DNA of 26,550 bases from a virus. Below the pieces are notes generated by a model. The model did not search any database. It was not told the origin of the DNA and saw only the letters and a program-made list of their open reading frames with translations. The DNA lies in the IMG/VR virus record IMGVR_UViG_3300017613_001350, positions 1-26,550 of that record. One strand, written 5' to 3'. The position numbers and the translations under genes were made by a program. Of the stretch, positions 5,136 to 6,589 are shown one piece after another; the first letter of the stretch is position 1; each line of letters opens with the position of its first letter.

Positions 5136-5544
5136 AAAGGGGTATAAGTACCAGCTTGCTGAAGATTTTCAAATTGAGCTTGACAGTTTCACAACGTACG
5201 AAGCAAGCACAACTGATTTCATTCAGCTATGGGGCAAAACCGGCGACTACTACAGATCTATTCTTTTAATTAAAAAAGGTTATGCCTGGGATGGGGCAAG
5301 CGGCCCGGCGATTGACACCAAAACCTTTATGATTTCCTCGCTGGTGCATGATGCACTATATCAACTTATCAGGGAGGGTCTTTTAAATATAGAATTTCGG
5401 TCTGTTGCTGATCAAATATTATATGATATGTGTATTAAGAATGGAATGTGTAAATTGAGGGCATGGTGGGTATATAAAACTGTAAAATATTTTGCGAAAG
5501 AGGCGGCAAGCCCCAGGAACAAAAAGGAAGTTTTTATAGTCTAA
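5125..5544 (+). CDS. DUF1353-family phage protein
   Basis: 139 aa. The core matches DUF1353: KGYAWDGASGPAIDT at 51-65, then SSLVHDALYQL at 72-82 with the His75-Asp76 pair, and a helix FRSVADQILYDMC at 91-103. The family is common in phages and its biochemical role is not established. The invariant W-D-G-S and H-D residues suggest an enzyme. It closes the early operon and its stop overlaps the stop of the convergent late gene. As no endolysin is visible in the window, it is one candidate for the missing lysis enzyme, though only by elimination. Confidence 0.8.
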   Translation: MEYKKGYKYQLAEDFQIELDSFTTYEASTTDFIQLWGKTGDYYRSILLIKKGYAWDGASGPAIDTKTFMISSLVHDALYQLIREGLLNIEFRSVADQILYDMCIKNGMCKLRAWWVYKTVKYFAKEAASPRNKKEVFIV

Positions 5545-6140
5545 GGCTCGATTATAACCCACATCGAAGCTTCACTAAGTTGGGTTGGTGAATACCAGTG
5601 GAAAGGCTGGTTGACCATGAATTTCAACATGTTTGATTCTTCAATTTCGGTATCTTCGTTATCTCTGTACAGAATATGAACCATGCCGAACACGTCCCAA
5701 CTATGCCGCGTAAAGTCACGCACGACGTACTGTGCAACCCAAGACCATTTATGGGTGCGCAAGCTGGCTGTAGTCGCCGCCGGTTCAAATAGCCCCAGTT
5801 TGAATATATTAAAACCATTTTTTATATATATTTTCAAGCGGGCTATGTCAAATTGATCCGCCGGCCTAAATTTAAGCCCAGATCTTTTGCTCAAATTTGA
5901 TAAGATTTTCAGTTGTTCGATTGTGTCTAATCCGTTCAAGTAGCTTAGGTTGCTCATCCAATATACGCCGCCGGCCGGCTCCCAGAGTAGCTTTATCGAA
6001 GAAATAGACGGAATTGGATCAACTTTTTTCAAGGGTGGAATTGATACGGATTGCATAGAGGGAGCGCGCATAGGCTTATATCTCTCAGCACTCGCGGCAC
6101 TTGCAATTATTAATATAAATATAATTATTATTTTTTTCAT
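5541..6140 (-). CDS. Secreted protein of unknown function (199 aa)
   Basis: The start at 6140 is chosen because it begins a clear signal peptide (MKKIIIIFILIIASAASA, cleavage after Ala18). A longer reading to 6305 would pass through the tRNA-like sequence and bury the signal. The mature part is about 180 residues with many aromatics (FHWYSPTQLSEASMWVII at the end) and a Pro/Ser-rich N-terminus. There is no Shine-Dalgarno before the ATG; the tRNA-like 3' end lies about 10 bases upstream. It is the last gene of the late arm and overlaps the convergent DUF1353 gene by four bases. No family is recognised. Confidence 0.65.
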   Translation of the reverse strand: MKKIIIIFILIIASAASAERYKPMRAPSMQSVSIPPLKKVDPIPSISSIKLLWEPAGGVYWMSNLSYLNGLDTIEQLKILSNLSKRSGLKFRPADQFDIARLKIYIKNGFNIFKLGLFEPAATTASLRTHKWSWVAQYVVRDFTRHSWDVFGMVHILYRDNEDTEIEESNMLKFMVNQPFHWYSPTQLSEASMWVIIEP

Positions 6141-6149
6141 GTTTTTTAG

Positions 6150-6220
6150 AGCGGAAGACCGGACTTGAGCCAGTAACATCCAACCTGGGCGGTTGGCACT
6201 CTGCATTGAGCTACTTCCAC
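6150..6220 (-). tRNA. Degenerate tRNA-Gly-like sequence (CCC by position)
   Basis: A full cloverleaf can be drawn on the minus strand. The acceptor is GTGGAAG/CTTCCGC (all 7 pairs, one G-U), T8-A9 are present, the D stem is GCTC/GAGT, the anticodon stem CCAAC/GTTGG, the variable loop ATGTT and the T stem ACTGG/CCGGT. The discriminator is U and is followed by CTA instead of CCA. U73 and a CCC triplet fit glycine. Several key positions are wrong: base 33 is G not U, the D loop is only six bases and lacks the GG pair, and the T loop begins CT not TT. It fills exactly the gap between two genes. It is probably a decayed or repurposed tRNA. Confidence 0.6.
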
Positions 6221-6589
6221 TTATTTCCCGTATAGCTTTACAAGTAATGTTCCAATTATTCCCAAACACGCCGCGAAAAAAGTACCGGCGGCAGCACATG
6301 TCCACGCAAAAATCTTGTCTTGCCGGACGACTAACACCTTCATTGCCTCGATTCTTGAGTTTCGCTCTGTCTCGATCCTATCTTTTAGGTTTCTATTTAC
6401 GCTTTCAATCTCATTTTTTATCGCGCTCATTTCCGCCCTTAACGTAGTCACGGCACTTTGAAGTCTTTCAATGGCATTCCAAAAAAGCTTTTTTTCTTGC
6501 TTGTAATCTCCTGCAATTTCTGAGTGTCGTTCATGTTCAGAACAAAAGCCGCATGGATTCCGGCCATCTGCGTTAAAATTTTCATTCAT
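6221..6589 (-). CDS. Coiled-coil protein with C-terminal membrane helix (lysis-associated?)
   Basis: 122 aa. The N-terminus has a CGFCSEH cysteine motif (residues 13-19), then a heptad-rich coiled coil (about 35-85: IERLQSAVTTLRAEMSAIKN onward) and one C-terminal membrane helix (about 94-117: FAWTCAAAGTFFAACLGIIG). This resembles XhlA-type haemolysin/holin accessory proteins and other phage membrane anchors near lysis genes. The stop abuts the tRNA-like sequence. Role inferred from architecture and position. Confidence 0.6.
   Translation of the reverse strand: MNENFNADGRNPCGFCSEHERHSEIAGDYKQEKKLFWNAIERLQSAVTTLRAEMSAIKNEIESVNRNLKDRIETERNSRIEAMKVLVVRQDKIFAWTCAAAGTFFAACLGIIGTLLVKLYGK

Follow-up and report, generated by a model that had tools for sequence, protein, structure and literature searches.

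The window, the whole stretch of 26,550 nucleotides that was analysed (IMG/VR record IMGVR_UViG_3300017613_001350), is a 26.5 kb fragment of the genome of an uncultured, myovirus-like phage. The phage is kin of Vibrio, Shewanella and Aeromonas phages, and its nearest sheath proteins are ~38-39% identical. A tRNA-Gly-like element of 74 bases lies between two late genes of this phage (Table 1). By its appearance, the product of the upstream gene resembles holin/XhlA-like proteins of the lysis-cassette type. G1 of the element abuts the TAA stop codon of this gene (6223-6221), and 6 nt separate the 3′ CTA from the ATG of the downstream gene (6140); an earlier, sequence-only reading had placed one base and about 10 bases at these two junctions, respectively. 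That reading had also described the downstream ATG as devoid of a Shine-Dalgarno sequence. The site is indeed weak, but it is not special, with ~7 of the 25 scored genes of the window similarly weak. The almost leaderless mRNA proposed for the secreted protein is backed by no test, and a weak ribosome site is nothing unusual in this genome. No terminator or promoter signal above that of shuffled sequences was detected at the element.

Table 1. Features of the locus and related elements
Feature	Position	Strand	Description and source
tRNA-Gly(CCC)-like element	6147..6220	minus	Rfam RF00005, own model, ARAGORN, fold (z -2.23)
D-loop region core	6201..6206	minus	loop AAUGCA = 6207-6202; CM alignments, start-codon scan
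Anticodon loop CGCCCAG	6183..6189	minus	C32, G33 replacing U33, CCC 34-36, A37, G38; ARAGORN drawing, fold
T-loop CUCAAGU	6161..6167	minus	T54 replaced by C; U55, C56, A57, A58 kept; CM alignments, ARAGORN drawing
Upstream gene	6221..6589	minus	122 aa, coiled coil and C-terminal transmembrane segment; weak family matches only; ORF list
Downstream gene	5541..6140	minus	199 aa, N-terminal signal-peptide-like segment; no family match, no close relatives
tRNA-like element, three related phages	L135 3133-3202, L140 4299-4368, L155 2906-2976		related uncultured phages, DNA 82-97% identical

The reading frame of the secreted protein is open through the element (window 6140-6305), and an ATG within the D-loop (6206-6204), 14 nt past the upstream stop, is in frame with it. 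An N-terminally longer form of the secreted protein, starting at 6206, is possible. The ribosome site of this ATG is weak (-4.0 kcal/mol), and 6140 is a natural-looking start for a signal peptide (MKKIIIIF).

Read on the minus strand from 6220 to 6147, the acceptor strand GUGGAAG is followed by UA, the D-arm (GCUC, AAUGCA, GAGU), a single G, the anticodon arm (CCAAC, CGCCCAG, GUUGG), the variable loop AUGUU, the T-arm (ACUGG, CUCAAGU, CCGGU), the second acceptor strand CUUCCGC, the discriminator U and CUA. G1 is thus at 6220, U73 at 6150 and the terminal CTA, in place of CCA, at 6149-6147. All 21 cloverleaf pairs are present in the ARAGORN drawing and in the predicted fold, three of them G.U: 7/7 in the acceptor stem (wobble U2.G71), 4/4 in the D stem (G10.U25), 5/5 in the anticodon stem and 5/5 in the T stem (U51.G63). 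An extra C32-G38 pair is possible in the anticodon loop. The cloverleaf is the minimum-energy fold when 20-150 nt are included on both sides, with mean pair probabilities of 0.85-1.0; with 100 nt of 5′ flank only, the acceptor, D and T stems are predicted to misfold for the most part. Several claims made from the letters alone hold up here, namely that all four stems pair, that U33 and T54 are lost (G33 and C54 are in their place), that the isotype is glycine (anticodon CCC, codon GGG, and U73) and that the 3′ end reads CTA. The D-loop GG, which had been called missing, is lost by one G only. The other is retained in AAUGCA, a loop of six bases with a single G where tRNAs carry G18 G19 according to the covariance-model alignments, in which canonical T54-T55-C56 also reads CUC.

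The covariance-model check leaves little doubt about the origin of the fold. The Rfam tRNA model matches the element with 40.9 bits (gathering threshold 29; E 4e-8 over 4227 families with an 81-base input), while 49.0 bits (E 5.5e-13 for the whole window, where the second-best match scores 7.2 bits) were obtained with our own model, built from 35 phage tRNAs and the cloverleaf structure. ARAGORN calls tRNA-Gly(ccc) at the element at 98% of its threshold (-ps98). A blastn search with a longer stretch retrieved tRNA-Gly(tcc) of Arthrobacter phage Atuin, 76.5% identical over 79 bp (E 7e-6 in 2.3 Gb). Because covariance models, ARAGORN and blastn all match, the element is a real tRNA-Gly homologue rather than a chance fold. 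All that speaks for a chance cloverleaf is that default searches fail to see the element; the E-values with the two models and the blastn match to a real tRNA-Gly refute this idea for practical purposes, and its probability is negligible.

Default ARAGORN and cmscan with Rfam gathering filters leave the element undetected, and a permissive scan of 271 bases showed no tRNA at its position. The 40.9-bit match (6144-6224) is lost under default cmscan filters unless the stretch supplied is very short. In practice, default scans with ARAGORN and Rfam thus miss an element that scores 12 bits over the threshold of the full tRNA model. With the full-length tRNA as the only query, blastn retrieved nothing from phages or plasmids. 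Short queries are probably penalised by the scoring, given that the longer one did match tRNA-Gly. A PreQ1 match of 11.9 bits was dismissed as chance.

The score of the element comes mostly from its structure. Class I phage tRNAs of the calibration set score 48-83 bits with structure and mostly 18-60 bits with the sequence-only version of our model. The 49.0 bits of the element lie at the lower edge of real phage tRNAs and ~36 of them come from pairing, while no full-length class I phage tRNA of the set has a sequence-only score as low as its 12.7 bits. Its shape is preserved and its signature bases are worn away, the structural part being as full as in real tRNAs. Phage tRNA-Gly(CCC/UCC) genes, such as Atuin tRNA-Gly(tcc) and a tRNA-Gly(ccc) on a viral contig (L009 1552-1479), are 73-78% identical to the element and share its cloverleaf, variable loop (AUGUU/AUGUC), U73 and glycine anticodon. 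However, they have G18G19, U33 and TTCGA T-loops and score 78-80 bits, as opposed to one G, G33, C54 and 49 bits in the element.

No homologue of this very element was found in the collections searched, and no close relatives of the phage were retrieved by baseplate J, the secreted protein or terminase among IMG/VR viral contigs, or by the sheath among GTDB genomes. A search of 43 related phage records with the Rfam tRNA model and default filters returned real tRNAs in two or three only; it says little about absence, because the same search misses the element. When five relatives were searched with our own model unfiltered, only a partial tRNA was found, beside an integrase in Edwardsiella phage EPP-1. 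This partial tRNA (L033 9353-9404) follows the tail genes, adjoins a tyrosine recombinase and is probably an attP site.

A conserved analogue is present in three related uncultured phages (Table 1), 5 nt past the stop of the head-scaffolding gene and ahead of the major head protein gene. Variation among the three copies is concentrated in the anticodon arm, with several substitutions and one indel, and in the sequence immediately flanking the element; the acceptor, D and T arms hardly change. Since U33 is still readable in two of the three, these elements speak more for conservation of the body than for a loss of decoding.

Phage tRNA-like sequences with a one-G D-loop surfaced during the D-arm search for relatives of the element. 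They were collected from IMG/VR by exact-pattern scans, with GTAGCTCARTGYAGAGY as the test pattern (one-G D-loop) and GTAGCTCAATGGCAGAGY as the two-G control; the D-loop letters differ between the two patterns, and all control counts are among the GTAGCTCAATGGCAGAGY matches listed. The acceptor and T stems (12 pairs) were fitted by a simple procedure that ignores loops, on metagenomic contigs without reads. Of the 39 test sequences, 31 form all 12 pairs; U33 within a canonical anticodon arm occurs in 14, TTC in 24 and both in 8. The corresponding numbers for the 94 listed controls are 80, 69, 88 and 66. U33 and TTC thus occur together far less often in the one-G set (8/39 vs 66/94 listed controls, p 3e-7), while the acceptor and T stems are fully paired to a similar extent (31/39 vs 80/94, p 0.45). 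A stricter 17-pair fit gave the same picture, with both features in 6/24 test sequences vs 63/75 listed controls (p 2e-7) and full pairing in 71% of each. The element of the window, with a six-base D-loop of the RUGYA type, has 17/17 and 12/12 pairs. CCA is encoded in about a third of the test members, as in controls.

The set, selected by the D-loop, is heterogeneous, and some members may decode; one (L019 Trp) is an otherwise canonical phage tRNA. In seven members (L127, L141, L142, L147, L149, L161 and L176), the anticodon arm is replaced by a tetraloop or by long or branched hairpins (~66 nt in L147). To judge from these arms, the usual decoding cannot take place in them. Two one-G elements (L028 and L142) adjoin endolysin genes, and the element of the window adjoins the holin-like gene. 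Tight placement behind a stop codon was considered as a hallmark of the class and rejected, as it is not commoner than in control tRNAs: 6 of 15 lone one-G elements lie <=30 nt after the upstream stop, compared with 7 of 30 lone control tRNAs (not significant).

To compare this pattern with neutral decay, canonical control tRNAs were decayed in simulation under matching D-arm and fit ascertainment. Between 25 and 45% of the passing sequences were non-decoders, compared with 31/39 observed. All 12 pairs were retained in 26 of the 31 observed non-decoders vs 39-59% of the simulated ones (p 0.003 to 5e-7). Stem retention therefore exceeds simulated neutral decay at the class level. When a single phage tRNA-Gly was decayed, all 21 pairs persisted after the loss of 3/13 invariant unpaired bases with a probability of 0.004-0.007, or 0.02-0.03 if only U33 and T54 were counted and the D-loop excluded; these probabilities are optimistic, because the intact fold is why the element was noticed. 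Supported at the class level, the cloverleaf appears to be kept by selection, above all its acceptor/T/D body, for something other than decoding.

Judging from its altered bases, the element itself has probably ceased to function as an elongator tRNA. Nearly all elongator tRNAs have U33 and T54. A tRNA-Gly(CCC) that still decodes with unusual loops would explain the ARAGORN call close to threshold, the agreement of the CCC anticodon with U73 and the existence of at least one otherwise canonical phage tRNA with a one-G D-loop (L019 Trp, above). Nevertheless, U33 and T54 are both lost, C32-G38 would tighten the anticodon loop to five bases, and the codon that would be served, GGG, is used less often in the window than any other Gly codon (90/524, 17%), so that this alternative is improbable. 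The sequence-only proposal that the element does not decode is, as an inference, well supported by G33, C54, the short D-loop, the rarity of GGG and the co-occurrence of such traits at the class level.

The main rival is a relic, a once-useful phage tRNA-Gly(CCC) that recently became non-functional and is decaying, with intact stems that reflect luck and the way it was noticed. This account has considerable weight, although we do not favour it. There is precedent, as both degenerate phage tRNAs and prokaryotic tRNA fragments have been described (PMC9897764). The wobbles U2.G71, G10.U25 and U51.G63 resemble C-to-U changes that happen to keep pairing, the loss of a D-loop G, G33, C54 and CTA are typical decay damage, and the primary-sequence score is low. 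It has to contend with the improbability of retaining 21/21 pairs under neutral decay of one tRNA (0.004-0.03, an optimistic figure) and with the rejection of the neutral pattern at the class level. Alternatively, the RNA could act as a decoy or resistant substrate. It would then undergo processing and perhaps glycylation, and would bind or spare a host factor, for example glycyl-tRNA synthetase, an anticodon nuclease or a toxin directed against tRNAs. The bacterial glycine identity set comprises U73, G1-C72, C2-G71, G3-C70, C35 and C36, as well as G10, U16 and C50-G64 (PMC9976931). All of these are present in the element except C2-G71, which is U2.G71, and a decoy or nuclease-escape role is possible because most of them remain. 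U73 and G71, the determinants of the TacT toxin, also remain, and a link has been drawn between changed anticodon loops of phage tRNAs and evasion of anticodon nucleases (PMC10264068). However, identity bases are kept no better than tertiary bases (~12/13 vs 12/15), the second acceptor pair is changed, and U33 would be required in a tRNA that evades nucleases so as to take part in translation. We regard such a role as unlikely.

An attachment-site remnant, that is, a piece of a host tRNA gene left by a temperate ancestor, is very improbable. An attachment site retains the 3′ half of the tRNA gene of its host. The element resembles the attP/attR tRNA fragments of integrative elements as a tRNA-derived sequence in a phage that is probably non-functional as a tRNA, and the distantly related EPP-1 does have a partial tRNA beside a tyrosine recombinase. 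Unlike these fragments, which are partial and match the 3′ half of a host gene, the element is a whole cloverleaf, and none of 85,000 species genomes contains its sequence from the T-loop through the discriminator (YTCAAGTCCGGTCTTCCGCT), which argues against a recently captured host tRNA end or attachment site. No integrase or recombinase family was found among the window ORFs inspected and the neighbours scanned, the window being a fragment.

The best explanation, to which we assign a probability of about 0.4, is a tRNA derivative that retains its fold, does not decode and acts as a processing element in the late transcript. The element is compatible with, and plausibly is, a processing signal; on the model we propose, it would be co-transcribed with the late genes and cut by tRNA-processing enzymes, with an effect on gene expression. 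Descended from a bacterial-type tRNA-Gly(CCC), it would be transcribed within the late operon and fold as a tRNA. Host RNase P would recognise the UAA/G1 boundary, RNase Z or E together with exonucleases would act on the 3′ side, and cutting would separate the holin-like message from the secreted-protein message. Against this processing model, T54C and the lost D-loop G would weaken, perhaps not abolish, recognition by RNase P, the 3′ end is CTA without CCA, and the tight post-stop site is not specific to the class.

In mitochondria, tRNAs punctuate polycistronic RNAs, and the punctuating tRNA is itself functional. The element is similar in that a tRNA fold would lie directly between two genes of one transcript, assuming co-transcription; it differs in that it is probably not a functional tRNA and its processing role is putative. 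Among described cases of a tRNA-Gly taken out of translation, the closest is the non-proteinogenic tRNA-Gly of Staphylococcus, which serves cell-wall pentaglycine synthesis and has UU or CU in place of the D-loop GG, the weak EF-Tu pair A49-U65 and A51-U63, with glycine identity kept (PMC4052509). The element likewise has an altered D-loop GG, A49-U65 and a largely kept glycine identity. In contrast to the Staphylococcus tRNA, one G is deleted rather than two replaced and U51.G63 takes the place of A51-U63, so that two defining changes are absent, and U33 and T54 are lost in addition.

The recurrence of the one-G combination may indicate that some phages keep the tRNA shape for another job. 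A broader form of this proposal, which we consider rather unlikely, is that many phages carry non-decoding tRNA-derived RNAs in which the acceptor, D and T arms are selected, the D-loop is short and the anticodon arm is free or replaced, used as excisable folds between late genes or as decoys that engage host tRNA-binding enzymes; default tRNA finders would often miss or misname them. Literature searches of open-licence papers returned no description of such a class. To our knowledge, the purpose of phage tRNAs has long been open, and nearly all work assumes decoding. If the recurrent set is kept for its fold, codon-supply explanations fail for that set, and hypotheses of processing, decoy function or host-enzyme involvement would be directly testable on short, easily cloned elements. 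One viral contig (L025 894-1144) contains three consecutive tRNA-like genes with anticodon CTA (Pyl according to ARAGORN), one of them with the T-loop TAAAAGT; these are possible phage amber suppressors.
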